NCBI RefSeq assembly: GCF_004114915.1
Contig: NZ_CP022219.1
Location: forward strand, 1,952,501-2,016,500
Origin: Bradyrhizobium guangxiense
Lineage (GTDB): Bacteria; Pseudomonadota; Alphaproteobacteria; Rhizobiales; Xanthobacteraceae
DNA length: 64,000 nt
Direction: 5' to 3'
Part shown: positions 3,509 to 9,258 of the stretch, one piece after another
Layout: each line of letters starts with the position of its first letter
Position numbering within the stretch: position 1 is the stretch's first letter
The notes under the pieces: generated by a model
The model's database searches: none
Told to the model about the DNA's origin: nothing
The model's input: the letters and a program-made list of their open reading frames with translations, nothing else
Made by a program: the position numbers and the translations under genes

Positions 3509-4609
3509 TCACGCCGCCGGAATCGTGCTCTGCATGCGGTGGAAGCGCAGCACCTGCTGTGCGGTCGATGAACGCAGCGCCTCGTAACTGTCCCGCAGCG
3601 TCAGCATGTCGGTCTGCGAGCCGCCCGAGAGCTTCTCGCGCATCGCGATGATGGCGCGCACGCTCGGCCACGACATGCCGGCGACCTTGGCGAGGATCAT
3701 CACGCCCTCGGTGCGGCTTTCGATCATCATGGTCTCGGCGGTCTCGACCGCGACGCCGGCGAGGGCGGCGAGCCCCGCATTGGTTTCGTCGAACTTGCCC
3801 TGCTCGGCGAAGGCGGTGACCTGGAATTCGTCGAGGCGGCCGTCCTCGTGCAGCGACTTCACCAGCGCGCGCGCCATCTCGGTCTGCTTCGTCATGGCGG
3901 CGGCGCGGACTCGCTGGGCCGCTTCCTGGACCACGCTCGACACCTCGTCCACGAGCTCCGGATGCGCGGCCGCGAGCTTCCTGCGCACGCTCGATGACGC
4001 CTTTGCGACCAGCTTCAAATAGTAGTGGCGCGGCAGGTCGGGCCGCAGGCCGATGCAGGTGGCGAGGTCGTCGTCGCGTTCGGCGCGCGTGACGAGGTCG
4101 GACAGGCTTCCCTCGGAGAACCGCGCGCCTGGATTCCTGACGGTCGACTGCACCACGTCCTCGTTGCCGCGCGTCACCAGAACGTCAGTCAGCGCCTCCG
4201 ACAGGCCCCGCCGCAGCGAGATCGCCTTGAGATGTGCCTGGCCCCGCGTGCGCGCGATCTCGATCAAGGTCGTCTCGTCCAGCCGCTCCGATCTCGACAG
4301 CACGGGGCCGGAGACCTCGATGACCTCGTCGAGCGCGAGCGTGCGGATGATCTTTGGCGGCGCGGCCGCGATCGGTGCGAGCCGGTCGGCGAGCAGCGCC
4401 CTGGCCGAGGTCTCGATCTGCTCGATCAGGCACTGGAACACGTCGTCGAACACGCGGATGTGGTCGTCGGAATAATCCACCGCGTTGCCCACGAAGAGAT
4501 CGGTGACGCGGCGCAGCGTCTCGACCCGGCGCGCGACGGTGCCGTGCGAGAGCGCGGCCTGCAGTTCCTCGAGCAGGTTCTCGGATGACTTTGCGGATTT
4601 GGATCTCAT
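3509..4609 (-). CDS. DUF2336 domain protein
   Basis: 366 residues, largely helical. It has the DUF2336 pattern: an N-terminal repeat-like helical region with VARRVETLRRVTDLF, a central segment (VLVTRGNEDVVQSTVRNPGA) and a C-terminal part rich in Ala/Glu helices. The family is confined largely to alphaproteobacteria and its function is not settled; HEAT-like helical packing is suggested by the periodicity. No signal peptide or membrane segment is visible, so it is probably cytoplasmic. ATG at 4609 follows GGACAGGG. A second, more diverged DUF2336 gene lies at 40904-41884, and both end next to the same dispersed repeat. It shares orientation with the diguanylate cyclase upstream (60 bp apart), so they may be co-transcribed. 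Confidence 0.8.
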   Translation of the reverse strand: MRSKSAKSSENLLEELQAALSHGTVARRVETLRRVTDLFVGNAVDYSDDHIRVFDDVFQCLIEQIETSARALLADRLAPIAAAPPKIIRTLALDEVIEVSGPVLSRSERLDETTLIEIARTRGQAHLKAISLRRGLSEALTDVLVTRGNEDVVQSTVRNPGARFSEGSLSDLVTRAERDDDLATCIGLRPDLPRHYYLKLVAKASSSVRRKLAAAHPELVDEVSSVVQEAAQRVRAAAMTKQTEMARALVKSLHEDGRLDEFQVTAFAEQGKFDETNAGLAALAGVAVETAETMMIESRTEGVMILAKVAGMSWPSVRAIIAMREKLSGGSQTDMLTLRDSYEALRSSTAQQVLRFHRMQSTIPAA

Positions 4610-4669
4610 TGCCCTGTCCTGGAGCGTTTGGTCCGGCGGTTTCTGCCGAACCGGGAGAAAATGGATTGG

Positions 4670-5824
4670 TCAGCTCGTTGCTATGCGGTTGCGCCCTTGC
4701 GCCTTGGCGGAATAGAGCGCGCTGTCGGCGCGCGCGAGAAATGTGTCGGCAGTATCAGTCTCGCGCAGCGCCACGACGCCGGCAGAAATGGTCACGCTCA
4801 TGCTGAGGGAGAATGCGCCCCAGTCGAGATCGGCGACGATGCTGCGCAAGCGCTCAAGCATGTGCTGCGCGGCTTCGGCCGACGTGTCCGGCAGCAGCAG
4901 CAGGAATTCCTCGCCGCCATAGCGGCCGAAGCTGTCGGACGGGCGGATATTGGCGAAAATGGTGATCGCGAAGGTGCGCAGCACCTCGTCGCCGACGGGA
5001 TGGCCGTGGGCGTCGTTGATGCGCTTGAACCAGTCGAGATCGATCAGGGCGATCGCGCAGGGCGTCGAGGTCTGCCGCGACTTTTCGATCTCGGCATCGA
5101 GCAGCCGCATGATGCAGCGGCGGTTGTAGGAGCCGGTGAGTTCGTCGAGCTCGGCCAGCTCCTCGATGCGCTGATAGGCGGCCTTCAGCTCGATGCTGCG
5201 CCGGTACAGGACCTTGCGCAGGGTGGCGCCGAACAGGCCGAGGAAGGCACACTGGCCGATCACCAGCACGAAGCAGAGCATCGAGGCGGTGCGCTCCAGG
5301 CGGGTCGCGACCGGCAGCCCGATCGGAAGGTCCGAGCCCAGGAAGACGAAGGCCAGCCCACAGGTGGCGAGGCCCCAGGTGAGCATCGCCTGGCTCGAGG
5401 TCATGCGCAGCGTGCCAAACGCGAAGATCAGAAACAGCACCGCGATGAAGGCGACCCCGACCGTCGGCACGGCGAGCAGGAACACCAGTTGCAGCCCCAT
5501 GTGCGCCGAGATCTGGAAGACGGTGAGGTAATGATCCTCGAAGCGGTCACCGATGCCGGCTTCCGACAGGACGGTGAAGGTTCCGATGATCAGGAGGCCG
5601 CCGAGCCAGAACAGCGATGGGACGGCCATGGAGACCGTTCCGCCATAGGCGTAAAGCAACAGGACCGAGGCGCCCAGCGAATAGCTCGCGATCTGGCCGA
5701 CATACATCTGGCGGCGCTGCCGGACCCGGCGCGCCAGGACTGCCGGAGCCGCCGCCTCGGGCGCGAGGACGGTGTCCGCGACCTCAGCGGCATTCCTCTC
5801 GGGAAAGGTCGCGGCCGTGCTCAT
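4670..5824 (-). CDS. Membrane-bound diguanylate cyclase with I-site
   Basis: 384 residues. About five to six hydrophobic helices fill residues 40-200 as a sensory membrane domain of unnamed type. A short linker helix follows, then a GGDEF domain from about 222 (AELDELTGSYNRR). It synthesises c-di-GMP from two GTP. The active site is GGEEF at 303-307, with metal ligand DLDWFKRIND at about 262-271. The RxxD product-inhibition site (R294, D297) stands exactly five residues before it, so feedback control is expected. No EAL domain is present, so it should be a cyclase only. ATG at 5824 follows GGCGGGA. The gene lies just upstream of the DUF2336 gene in the same direction. Confidence 0.9.
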   Translation of the reverse strand: MSTAATFPERNAAEVADTVLAPEAAAPAVLARRVRQRRQMYVGQIASYSLGASVLLLYAYGGTVSMAVPSLFWLGGLLIIGTFTVLSEAGIGDRFEDHYLTVFQISAHMGLQLVFLLAVPTVGVAFIAVLFLIFAFGTLRMTSSQAMLTWGLATCGLAFVFLGSDLPIGLPVATRLERTASMLCFVLVIGQCAFLGLFGATLRKVLYRRSIELKAAYQRIEELAELDELTGSYNRRCIMRLLDAEIEKSRQTSTPCAIALIDLDWFKRINDAHGHPVGDEVLRTFAITIFANIRPSDSFGRYGGEEFLLLLPDTSAEAAQHMLERLRSIVADLDWGAFSLSMSVTISAGVVALRETDTADTFLARADSALYSAKAQGRNRIATS

Positions 5825-6264
5825 GGTCCCGCCAATGGTGGATGTCAGCGGAAAAATCTACGTGGCAAGCCTTTAGGTTTGGTATCCTTTTGAAGCCGAA
5901 TCCGAACCGTGCAGCACGGAGCAGGATGATGGGCCGGCGGAAGGAATTTTGCCGGCGATGAGGCGTCAGTTTGCGATGCGATCGAGCCTAAGCCGGGCTT
6001 GGCGAGACATATGTCGTGCAACGCTGCTATGGAACCGGACGAGGCCGGGCCGCCTGTGCCGGACAGGCATTCCGCAGGGAAGTATCTCAGTATTATGTTA
6101 CCGATCTGGATCGTGGCGGCCGATGGCCGCAGGTGGGACAAGAAAAATGCGGGTATGTGGGGGGGATCACACAGACGCCCGTATGACTGCGGTAGCTTGA
6201 ACAATTTTGCACCCCCCGTCGAACCGTCAGCCGCGCCGACCCGACCAACTTTGCGAGACGGCCT
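5825..6264. other. 440-bp divergent intergenic region
   Basis: It separates the diguanylate cyclase from the second ECF sigma operon and should hold both promoters. The only motif I can point to is TGAAC at 6198-6202 followed 14 nt later by CGTC at 6217-6220, about 45 nt before the sigma-factor start. It resembles ECF promoters, but the spacer is shorter than the usual 16-17 nt. G-runs are present (GGGGGGG near 6160). Short open frames here show no family features. Confidence 0.35.
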
Positions 6265-6834
6265 TTGAGCGTGACCCAGGCGGCTTCGGACGAGATCCTG
6301 ATCGCCAGGATCGCTCAAGGTGACCGGCTCGCCATGCAGGTGCTGTACGGGCGGCACCATGTCAGGGTGTACAGGTTCGGGCTCAGGCTCGTGCGGGACG
6401 AGCAGGCGGCAGAAGACCTCATCAGCGAGGTGTTTCTCGACGTCTGGCGTCAGGCCGGCAAGTTCGAGGGCCGATCCGCCGTCTCCACTTGGCTGCTGGC
6501 AATCACCCGATTCAAGGCCCTGTCTGCGCTTCGGCGCAGAAAGGATTTTGAGCTGGACGAAGAGGCCGCCAACGCGATCGAGGATGCGTCCGACGATCCG
6601 GAAACGGTGGTGCAGAAGAAGGATACCAGTGAAGTGTTGCGGGGGTGTCTGACGGGCCTCTCGCCGGAACACCGGGAAATCGTCGATCTCGTCTACTACC
6701 ACGAGAAGTCCGTGGAAGAGGTGGCCGAAATCGTCGGGATACCGGAGAACACTGTGAAGACGCGCTTGTTCTATGCGCGCAAGAAACTGGCCGAACTGCT
6801 GAAGGCAGCCGGCGTTGAGCGAGGCTGGCCATGA
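6265..6834 (+). CDS. ECF-type sigma factor paired with anti-sigma and S8 peptidase
   Basis: 189 residues. Sigma2 includes EQAAEDLISEVFLDVWRQAG and STWLLAITRFKALSALRRRK (about residues 45-95). Sigma4 includes LSPEHREIVDLVYYHEKS and the recognition region VEEVAEIVGIPENTVKTRLF (about 130-170). It should direct transcription of an envelope-related regulon. The start is uncertain: TTG at 6265 or GTG at 6271, with GAGACGG upstream. The stop overlaps the next start (ATGA), so sigma and anti-sigma are coupled. It differs clearly from the EcfF-type sigma at 2209 and belongs to the group whose partner is a single-pass anti-sigma with a cytoplasmic helical domain. Confidence 0.88.
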   Translation: MSVTQAASDEILIARIAQGDRLAMQVLYGRHHVRVYRFGLRLVRDEQAAEDLISEVFLDVWRQAGKFEGRSAVSTWLLAITRFKALSALRRRKDFELDEEAANAIEDASDDPETVVQKKDTSEVLRGCLTGLSPEHREIVDLVYYHEKSVEEVAEIVGIPENTVKTRLFYARKKLAELLKAAGVERGWP

Positions 6835-7526
6835 TGGCTTTGAGCAAGAAGATGCTGGAGCAAGAGCCCGGTGACATTGAACTGCTGCTGCCCTGGCACG
6901 CGGCCGGCACGCTGAACGCGCGCGATGCGCGTCGGGTCGAAGAAGCGCTGGCGCGCGATCCCGAGCTTGCCAAGCAATATGCCGCGATCCGCGGCGAATA
7001 CGAAGAGACCATCCATCTGAACGAGAGCCTGGGTGCTCCGTCGGCGCGCGCGATGCAGAAGCTGTTCGCTGCGATCGACGCCGAGCCGGCGCGGACGAGC
7101 GGCCCGCTGCCGCTGTCGGCGCGCATCTCGACCTTCTTCGCGAGCCTGTCGCCGCGCACGCTGGCGTGGTCGGCGACCCTCGGCGCCGTCGCGCTGGTGC
7201 TGCAAGCCGGTGTCATCGGTGCCGTGCTGATGAAGAACCAGCCTGCGACCTTCCAGACCGCCTCGCTCTCGACCGGCGCGCCGATCACGCGCGAGCTTGG
7301 CGGCGCCGCCGCGCCGGCACGCGCGCTGGTGCGCTTCACGCCTGAGGCGCGCATTGCCGACATCACCGCGCTGCTGGACAGCTACCACGCCTCGATCATC
7401 GACGGGGCCAAGGGTGGCTTGTTCCGCCTCCAGTTCGACAAGGCGATGAGCCAGGACGAGCTCGCTTCGCTGCTAGGCAAGATGCAGCGCGAGAAGTTCG
7501 TGAACCTCGCCGTCGCGGCGCCCTAG
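6831..7526 (+). CDS. Single-pass anti-sigma factor with propeptide-like periplasmic domain
   Basis: 231 residues. The cytoplasmic part, 1-108, has the anti-sigma domain pattern (LLLPWHAAGTLNARDARRVEEAL, residues 18-40) but lacks the HxxxCxxC zinc motif. One transmembrane helix spans about 111-134 (LAWSATLGAVALVLQAGVIG). The periplasmic domain, about 160-231, begins PARALVRFTPEARIADITAL and ends in a short beta/alpha unit. Its pattern of [VR]-RF-P, ALL-x-Y-x-A and GLFRL resembles the propeptide/inhibitor domains of subtilases. It probably tethers the sigma factor at the inner membrane. The secreted S8 peptidase encoded 16 bp downstream is a plausible ligand or processing enzyme; this is inference. 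ATG overlaps the sigma stop. Confidence 0.8.
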   Translation: MMALSKKMLEQEPGDIELLLPWHAAGTLNARDARRVEEALARDPELAKQYAAIRGEYEETIHLNESLGAPSARAMQKLFAAIDAEPARTSGPLPLSARISTFFASLSPRTLAWSATLGAVALVLQAGVIGAVLMKNQPATFQTASLSTGAPITRELGGAAAPARALVRFTPEARIADITALLDSYHASIIDGAKGGLFRLQFDKAMSQDELASLLGKMQREKFVNLAVAAP

Positions 7527-7542
7527 GCGCGCCGCTGAATCG

Positions 7543-9258
7543 ATGACGGGCAAATCCGAGAGCAGGATGCGCGCCGGGGCCCACGCTTCATCGGTCGGTG
7601 CCGCGCTTCTGATCGCCGCCTGTCTCGGCATCGAGGTTGCGCAGGCGCAGGCGATCATGCGCACGCCCACGATCAGCGTCCCCTCGCGAACGCCGACCAT
7701 CTCGTCCAGCATGACCCCGCGCGTCGCACCGACCGTGTCGGCCAGGGCCGTGTCCGTCGATCGCGGCCCGCGAACGATAGCGACCCTTCCCCACATCACG
7801 ACGTCGCGTATCCCGCCGACGACGACGGTGCTGCCATATGCGCGCTACTCGCCGAACCTCTATCCGGCCTGCAGCGCGCCCTATCGCGACGCCGATGGCG
7901 AATGCCTGGCGCAGCCGAACGCAGGCGGTGGCGGCTCAGCCAAATCCGGCCAGAAGAGTGCCGGCAAGGGCCGCGGCAACGCCACACCGGCCGCTGCCAG
8001 TCTGCGCAGCTTCGCCAACGAATTCGTGGCGGAGATCGACGGCACGCTGTCGCCCGGCGATGCCGACGAGCTTGCCCGCCGGCACGGCCTGAGGCGCATC
8101 TCCTCGGAGAATTTCCCGCTGATCGGGGCCACGTTCGGTCTGTTCCGCATCGCGGATGGCCGGCCGTACGAGACGGTGCGGCGCGAATTCGCGGCGGACG
8201 GCAGCGTGCGCTCGGTCCAGCCGAACTTCCGCTATGTGCTCCAGGACCAGAAATCGGTGGCCCCGAGCGAGGGCGATCCAGCGCAATACGCCCTGGCCAA
8301 GCTCCGCCTGCCGCAGGCGCACACGCTGGTGCACGGCGCCAACGTCACGATTGCCGTGATCGACTCCGGCATCGATGCCAGGCATCCCGAGCTCACCGAT
8401 TCCGTCGCCGACAATTTCGATGCCCTCGGCAGCGCCGAGGGGCCGCACATTCATGGCACCGGCATCGCCGGCGCGATCGTGGCGCATGCCCGGCTGATGG
8501 GCAGCGCCCCACAGGCGCGCCTCATCGCGATCCGCGCCTTTGGTGGTGCCAATGGCGGCGCCGAAAGCTCGTCCTACATCATCCTGCGTTCGCTGAACTA
8601 CGCCGCCGAGCACGGCGCGCAGATCGTCAATATGAGCTTTGCCGGTCCGAAGGACGCGGTGATCGAGCGCGCCATCGCGGCGACCGCCGCGCGCGGGCTC
8701 GTGCTGATTGCGGCCGCCGGCAATGCCGGCGCCAAGTCGCCGCCGCTCTATCCGGCCGCCAATCCCAACGTGATCGCAGTCAGCGCGACCGACCAGCAGG
8801 ACAGGCTGTTCACCGCGTCCAACCGCGGCAATTACATCGCGGTCGCAGCGCCCGGGGTCGATATCTTCCTGCCGGCGCCGGACGGCAAATACCAGATGAC
8901 GTCGGGAACCTCATTTTCGGCCGCCTATGTTTCCGGCGTCGCGGCGCTGCTGCTCGAGCGCAACTACGCCCTGAAGCCGGAAGCGCTGCGCGTGACGCTG
9001 ACGAAGACGGCGCGCGACCTCGGCTCTCCCGGGCGTGACGAGCTTTTCGGCGATGGCCAGCCCGACGCGTTTGCCGCAGTCATGGCTGTTCCCGCCACCA
9101 GCGCGACGCCGGTTGCGGCTGCGTCCGGTACAACAAAACGTGAAGACGCCGGGAAGCGTGGCGACGAGCCCAGTAGCCGCGCGATCGAACAACCCTCGCT
9201 GTCGAGCTCGGATGATAAATCCACGGTTTCTCAGGCGGATAGGCCAGCGACGCGCTAG
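7543..9258 (+). CDS. Secreted S8 (subtilisin-like) serine peptidase
   Basis: 571 residues from 7543. A second in-frame ATG at 7567, after GAGAGCAGG, gives a cleaner signal peptide (MRAGAHASSVGAALLIAACL, cleavage near AQAQA). A Pro/Thr-rich linker with four cysteines or fewer follows. A propeptide-like region is at about 155-235 (FVAEIDGTLSPGDADELARR), and the subtilase domain runs from 245 to 515. Catalytic residues are all visible: D274 (VIDSGID), H304 (HIHGTG), oxyanion N394 (AAGNAG) and S457 (SGTSFSA). The last 50 residues are polar and disordered. It should be an exported protease of the periplasm or medium. It is third in the sigma/anti-sigma operon, and a strong terminator lies 160 bp downstream. 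Mature substrate unknown. Confidence 0.9.
   Translation: MTGKSESRMRAGAHASSVGAALLIAACLGIEVAQAQAIMRTPTISVPSRTPTISSSMTPRVAPTVSARAVSVDRGPRTIATLPHITTSRIPPTTTVLPYARYSPNLYPACSAPYRDADGECLAQPNAGGGGSAKSGQKSAGKGRGNATPAAASLRSFANEFVAEIDGTLSPGDADELARRHGLRRISSENFPLIGATFGLFRIADGRPYETVRREFAADGSVRSVQPNFRYVLQDQKSVAPSEGDPAQYALAKLRLPQAHTLVHGANVTIAVIDSGIDARHPELTDSVADNFDALGSAEGPHIHGTGIAGAIVAHARLMGSAPQARLIAIRAFGGANGGAESSSYIILRSLNYAAEHGAQIVNMSFAGPKDAVIERAIAATAARGLVLIAAAGNAGAKSPPLYPAANPNVIAVSATDQQDRLFTASNRGNYIAVAAPGVDIFLPAPDGKYQMTSGTSFSAAYVSGVAALLLERNYALKPEALRVTLTKTARDLGSPGRDELFGDGQPDAFAAVMAVPATSATPVAAASGTTKREDAGKRGDEPSSRAIEQPSLSSSDDKSTVSQADRPATR

Follow-up and report, generated by a model that had tools for sequence, protein, structure and literature searches.

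The closest described relatives of the system analysed here are extracytoplasmic function (ECF) sigma factors that are controlled by proteolysis or encoded beside a protease gene. For many anti-sigma factors of ECF sigma factors, to our knowledge, neither the signal nor the site-1 protease has been described. We analysed a stretch of 64,000 nucleotides from Bradyrhizobium guangxiense (contig NZ_CP022219.1, positions 1,952,501 to 2,016,500 of the forward strand; hereafter the window, with positions counted from its first letter), in which an ECF sigma factor, a single-pass anti-sigma factor and a secreted S8 peptidase (subtilase) are encoded in a row. The anti-sigma factor carries a periplasmic domain that resembles a subtilase prodomain, which raises the prospect that the subtilase acts as the site-1 protease of its own sigma factor circuit.

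As described in PMC8103513, the RseA/DegS/RseP system of E. coli sigma-E, a case of regulated intramembrane proteolysis, likewise combines an ECF sigma factor with a one-pass anti-sigma factor made of a cytoplasmic anti-sigma domain and a periplasmic domain; unlike in that account, the subtilase is here encoded beside the anti-sigma factor, the anti-sigma factor bears the prodomain-like domain, and proteolysis is proposed from sequence. Protease genes beside ECF sigma factors are already on record in two groups (ECF26, PMC6180224; ECF54, PMC8999054). The ECF26 sigma factor gene rpoE6 of S. meliloti has a divergent, sigma-dependent serine protease gene, SMa0142, in an arrangement described as widely conserved in ECF26 (PMC6180224). 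Both systems thus place a protease gene next to an ECF sigma factor and its anti-sigma factor; we compared SMa0142 by its description, in which the protease family is not stated, and the ECF26 promoter GGAATA/GT differs from the TGAAC-N17-CGA[AC] found here (PMC6180224). In ECF54, subtilase, carboxypeptidase and CHAT genes lie near the sigma factor gene, and control by proteolysis was suggested there for sigma factors that lack an anti-sigma factor; a subtilase is near the ECF sigma factor in both cases, while the sigma factor studied here has an anti-sigma factor (PMC8999054). Our search of the open-access literature, itself weak evidence, found no anti-sigma factor with a prodomain-like domain or a subtilase partner.

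Two further comparisons concern the protease and its prodomain. The eukaryotic site-1 protease SKI-1/S1P is a subtilase with SREBP and ATF6 among its substrates. Both it and the enzyme studied here would be subtilase site-1 proteases acting on a membrane-held transcription regulator; the substrates are unrelated, and we know of no prodomain common to SKI-1/S1P and its substrates. With subtilase prodomains and I9-type inhibitors (PF22148, the subtilisin BPN'/E prosegment, POIA1) the anti-sigma domain shares the fold order, a profile match and an adjoining subtilase gene, but it is attached to the anti-sigma factor rather than to the protease, and it stops short of the part that occupies the active site.

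The locus and its prodomain-like ectodomain

The three genes and the domain in question are as follows.

6265..6834, + strand: ECF sigma factor, 189 amino acids (aa), TTG start (PF04542, PF08281; NF009168/PRK12515)
6831..7526, + strand: one-pass anti-sigma factor, 231 aa, ATG start, overlapping the sigma factor gene by ATGA
7543..9258, + strand: secreted S8 subtilase precursor, 571 aa, ATG start, 16 bp after the anti-sigma factor gene (PF00082)
7308..7523, + strand: periplasmic subtilase-prodomain-like domain of the anti-sigma factor, residues 160-231 (hhalign, family-level PF22148, predicted fold)

An earlier, sequence-only reading had described this order, with the ATGA overlap, the 16 bp gap and the S8 residues D274, H304 and S457, and open reading frames and Pfam searches bear it out. 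The sigma factor contains regions 2 and 4 only (PF04542, 61.8 bits; PF08281, 51.3 bits) and scores 348 bits against NCBIfam NF009168 (cut-off 236). The anti-sigma factor of the window stays below every threshold (zf-HC2, 15.6 bits with a cut-off of 22.2; TetR_C_31, 18.4; NF052375 antisigma, 31.2); zf-HC2 is matched at E<=0.1 by 42 of the 90 members of its family. Family-level statements here and below refer to alignments of 90 anti-sigma factors and 69 S8 peptidases, chosen from 112 and 96 located sequences plus those of the window.

The same reading had held that residues from about 160 to 231 of the anti-sigma factor look like a subtilase propeptide or inhibitor domain, and profile comparison, family-level Pfam matches and predicted topology agree with it. 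Aligned by hhalign, the anti-sigma domain matched the S8 prodomain profile at 90.8% (P 1.2e-6, score 35.9), and 100 column shuffles scored no higher than 16.0. PF22148 (Fervidolysin prodomain) was found at E<=0.1 in 16/90 anti-sigma factors and 34/69 partner subtilases, and it exceeded the Pfam cut-off in L052, L053 and L055 among ten anti-sigma factors scanned; taken alone, the anti-sigma factor of the window had no PF22148 match in Pfam at E<=1. The domain and the S8 prodomain were both modelled as beta-alpha-beta-beta-alpha-beta, with a predicted local distance difference test score (pLDDT) of 80-90 for the anti-sigma block 161-230. One of the outcomes that the sequence-only reading would have taken as its refutation, a fold unrelated to propeptides, was not obtained. 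Together these comparisons support a relationship between the periplasmic domain and the subtilase prodomain, in sequence as well as in fold.

Two features of the anti-sigma factor are new relative to that reading, the first being the way in which the domain ends. In structural alignments with 3whi, 1scj and 1spb, residue 231, the last of the anti-sigma factor, meets prosegment residue 72, and the prosegment is 77 residues long (1spb title). The last residue of a prosegment is the one that is cut. The domain thus ends some five residues ahead of the scissile one and lacks the active-site plug. Prodomain-type inhibitors (POIA1, prosegments) have a C-terminal tail that reaches the active site at P4-P1, and the anti-sigma domain has none: beyond V224 the protein of the window has seven more residues, the necessary number of at least 12 is reached in 10 of the 90 anti-sigma factors, and the other 80 are too short. 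A prodomain without a plug could in principle still dock, so that docking is conceivable whereas tight inhibition is unlikely.

Conservation of the gene linkage

Sigma factor, anti-sigma factor and S8 genes occur in that order in 30/30 Bradyrhizobium loci (L001-L030, the window locus included), so that the arrangement is more than chance. The anti-sigma factor was present in all 60 genus genomes searched (the window's own among them) and in 10 of 40 other genomes of the order, and profile searches recovered it from 126 of 397 genomes at the level of the order and from 16 of 385 at that of the class, the 16 including two from the genus. All three genes stood together in 36 of 38 fetched genus loci, the exceptions being L045 and L049. 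Among the 115 loci fetched as L031-L145, eight of them from the genus, the S8 match lay 426-1394 bases from the anti-sigma match in 106; outside the genus, an S8 gene was near the anti-sigma gene in 100 of 107 fetched loci. The nine loci of this set without a nearby S8 gene are L038, L041, L042, L045, L049, L065, L071, L094 and L135. In L038, L041, L071, L094 and L135 the anti-sigma gene lies near a contig end; the match in L042 is weak and confined to the cytoplasmic domain; and L065 is a second copy within its genome. L045 (5294-6187) has lost the S8 gene and retains only a fragment of the sigma factor gene.

The S8 gene is mostly downstream, but it precedes the sigma factor gene in L037, L105, L112, L115, L122, L127, L128 and L132, and L062, L143 and L145 have it on the opposite strand. 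A query built from loci with S8 upstream of sigma found the locus in Methylobacterium gnaphalii, M. brachythecii, M. haplocladii, Methylorubrum rhodinum, Chelatococcus sambhunathii and Hansschlegelia plantiphila, and S8 preceded sigma in 10/10 loci from this query. The gene neighbourhood is thus conserved in relatives, often through rearrangement, so that a second refuting result named by the sequence-only reading, an operon order not conserved there, did not arise. A linkage that persists through rearrangement points to a functional connection. Some matches are split across two frames (S8, L036:1552-2621; anti-sigma factor, L063:2583-3071; sigma factor, L109:5849-6378), perhaps by frameshifts or assembly errors.

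We also asked where the domain occurs at large. Searching 150 order genomes with a domain-only profile, built from these anti-sigma factors and with up to 38 candidates scored per genome, gave 37 matches, 36 of which fell on anti-sigma sites already found and one of which was weak. Across the phylum, PF22148 was matched nine times, in 8 of the 120 genomes searched: five in frames with the S8 active-site string, two in frames without it, one in the anti-sigma factor of genome G136 and one in a separate short frame. The last (L150:1003-1701, + strand, genome G1043) is a 233-residue frame just after a frame with an S8-like string and may encode a prodomain-like protein that stands on its own.

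The association of domain and subtilase was examined in 20 further loci, comprising all nine unfetched full-length rows outside the order and 11 of 18 rows matched by the cytoplasmic domain only. An S8 gene was found in the fetched stretch for 7/9 anti-sigma factors with the domain and for 1/11 matched by the cytoplasmic part only (Fisher P 0.0045, or 0.0063 when L165 and L166, from one genome, are counted once). Strong as it is, the association has exceptions: L065, L168 and L170 carry the domain with no S8 gene in the fetched stretch. In L168, where no protease was seen by eye in the fetched stretch, two anti-sigma relatives lie on opposite strands (4008-4346, -; 5181-5738, +) with no S8 match. 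In L170, a full-length domain-bearing anti-sigma factor (5256-5891) is followed by an exported frame (4453-5256, -) in the usual place of the subtilase, which we call caspase-like by eye (LALVIGNSAYR...YYAGHGA) and not from Pfam.

Juxtamembrane motif, promoter and subtilase

The second new feature is a conserved [YF]-x-T-A-[ST] motif just outside the membrane, placed within the anti-sigma factor as follows.

6864..7142, + strand: cytoplasmic anti-sigma domain, residues 12-104, with conserved LLPWH..GTL..RD..RVE, helical in the model
7152..7238, + strand: transmembrane helix, residues about 108-136, a hydrophobic stretch (model helix 108-136, low confidence)
7251..7265, + strand: F-Q-T-A-S at residues 141-145, a juxtamembrane motif and candidate for site-1 cleavage

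The helix includes Q125, which is kept in 64 of the 90 anti-sigma factors. Between membrane and domain lies a linker of variable length (17 to 54 residues), yet [YF]-x-T-[AV]-[STG] is present in 58/90 linkers, compared with a mean of 0.76 and a maximum of 4 in shuffled linkers. A144 is alanine in 82/90 anti-sigma factors and ranks 8th in conservation among the columns counted. We regard this motif as a candidate cut site.

The corresponding features of the subtilase are these.

7543..7650, + strand: signal peptide as judged by inspection (hydrophobic stretch, AQA end), residues about 1-36
8008..8247, + strand: prodomain, residues about 156-235, with the tail N228-F-R-Y231-V-L-Q
8284..9057, + strand: catalytic domain, residues 248-505
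8362-8364, 8452-8454, 8722-8724 and 8911-8913, + strand: catalytic residues D274, H304, N394 and S457

In the HMMER alignment of the S8 profile with pro-subtilisin E, S8 Y231 falls on P4 of the latter; structural alignments shift this placement by one or two residues, and the tail is modelled with low confidence. In 63 of 68 locus pairs the anti-sigma factor has Y or F at the first motif position, and in 66 the S8 prodomain has Y or F at the position aligned to P4. The S4 pocket is a main specificity site of subtilases. An aromatic P4 common to the motif and the prodomain would thus be in keeping with one protease acting on both.

The subtilase itself has an intact active site, since the D-H-S triad (D274, H304, S457) and the oxyanion residue N394 are invariant across the 69 aligned partners, and it scores 152.7 bits against PF00082. 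Its best NCBIfam match, the T7SS mycosin model TIGR03921, reaches 173.8 bits and stays under the cut-off of 278.75. In its predicted structure the catalytic part was unusable. Protein P0240, identical over the searched residues 145-510 (100%), has 563 aa, eight residues fewer than the 571-aa S8 frame, which fits an alternative start at 7567 with a 40 bp gap after the anti-sigma gene.

Upstream of the sigma factor gene lies one further element.

6198..6223, + strand: predicted sigma-dependent promoter, TGAAC-N17-CGAA, a conserved box before the sigma factor gene

Of the 40 genus-type upstream regions, 34 contain TGAA-N18-CGAA (shuffle mean 0.06); TGAAC-N14..17-CGWC is present in 80 of 108 sigma-upstream regions from L031 on (shuffle mean 0.44), 69 of the 80 having the form TGAACC...CGAC; the two sets share nine regions. 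The strict pattern has a single copy in the genome from which the window comes. The near-constant spacing suggests that the box is the sigma factor's own, possibly autoregulated promoter.

In relatives, motif copies, not compared with shuffles, also precede neighbouring genes for exported proteins. The large ones (L040, L090, L104, L113, L116, L121, L130, L133, L135, L136) fall in one similarity cluster of 13, and of three scanned two had no Pfam match and one matched DUF7929 (L133); the small ones (L097, L099, L100, L120, L123, L125, L126) include a BA14K protein (L120) and tandem identical 91-residue proteins (L099, L100). The upstream neighbour of the locus in the window, on the opposite strand (4670-5824, -), resembles a membrane GGDEF protein (GGEEF, by eye).

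Proposed circuit and alternatives

We propose, with a probability of roughly 0.45, that the three genes form a dedicated sigma/anti-sigma/protease circuit in which the subtilase docks on the ectodomain, makes a site-1 cut at the juxtamembrane motif and so releases the sigma factor. The N-terminal domain of the anti-sigma factor would keep the ECF sigma factor at the membrane, and the plug-less ectodomain would be the docking site for the mature subtilase, which, once docked, would cut within [YF]-x-T-A|[ST] at the membrane edge. A site-2 protease and then cytoplasmic proteases would free the sigma factor, which would then act on the TGAAC...CGA promoter to transcribe its own operon, the protease gene with it, in a positive feedback. 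The gene linkage, the prodomain relationship, the shortened end, the conserved motif and the conserved promoter are read directly from sequence; we infer the docking, the cutting, the cut site and the activation of sigma by cutting. The sequence-only reading is thus partly supported: its 'self-contained' circuit was too strong a term, since release of the sigma factor would still need further proteases.

Several observations weigh against this proposal. The structural matches of the anti-sigma model to prodomains are no better than those to unrelated ferredoxin-like folds. The strict motif is absent from 32/90 linkers, and its distance to the domain goes down to 5 residues, a span over which a single subtilase may be unable both to dock on a chain and to cut it. 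In a distance-correlation test the periplasmic domain was not singled out, its partial r with the S8 catalytic domain being 0.477 compared with 0.464 for the cytoplasmic domain. Locus L049 (5038-6600) retains sigma and anti-sigma genes, its S8 gene is lost, and elsewhere in that genome there is only a 34% identical S8. To this is added the domain without S8 in L065, L168 and L170.

The last two observations would also suit a scheme, in our estimate unlikely, in which the subtilase is a mere exported target of the sigma factor, the domain senses something else, and the prodomain likeness reflects old descent or a shared ferredoxin-like fold with no contact between the two. Promoter copies before other exported-protein genes, such as those for BA14K (L120) and DUF7929 (L133), would be expected as well, although these copies were not compared with shuffles. 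Such a scheme fits poorly with a linkage that outlasts rearrangement and large sequence distance, with a domain profile that finds this anti-sigma factor only (with one weak exception), and with a likeness that extends beyond fold to sequence.

Relatives of the prodomain (subtilisin prosegments, POIA1) bind and inhibit subtilases. Subtilisin prosegments and POIA1 are also among the structural matches of the S8 prodomain model, and the anti-sigma domain is encoded beside the protease. The domain might on these grounds be a membrane-tethered decoy or inhibitor that titrates the mature subtilase, sensing its level or activity by occupancy or holding it in check while another site-1 protease (DegS/HtrA-type) frees the sigma factor. 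We consider this improbable: with the usual plug absent in the window and in 80/90 members, the domain has no tail to reach the active site, which disfavours simple titration by a tight inhibitor, and the conserved juxtamembrane motif is left unexplained unless another protease uses it. Least probable of all is a negative feedback in which another protease makes the site-1 cut and the sigma-induced subtilase ends the response by removing the signal (a misfolded or foreign periplasmic protein) or by clearing cut ectodomains: an S8 gene behind a seemingly autoregulated promoter is expected for an output as for an input, but this scheme needs an additional site-1 protease and gives the prodomain-like ectodomain no clear role.

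Beyond the single locus, the proposed circuit may, more tentatively, represent a widespread proteobacterial module in which the protease knows its target by the target's copy of its own prodomain, which has no plug and serves for docking, a plug-like peptide with an aromatic P4 is relocated to the edge of the membrane, where it is cut, and the subtilase serves as the dedicated site-1 protease of a sigma factor circuit. The protease may even be exchangeable, since L170 has a caspase-like frame in the place of the subtilase.

A protease, its likely docking domain and a candidate cut site are thus encoded together and conserved across many families, which makes the site-1 question directly testable in laboratory strains of Bradyrhizobium or Methylobacterium. 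If the proposal is true, subtilases would join the bacterial site-1 proteases, and a protease and a substrate sharing one domain family would constitute a specificity code.

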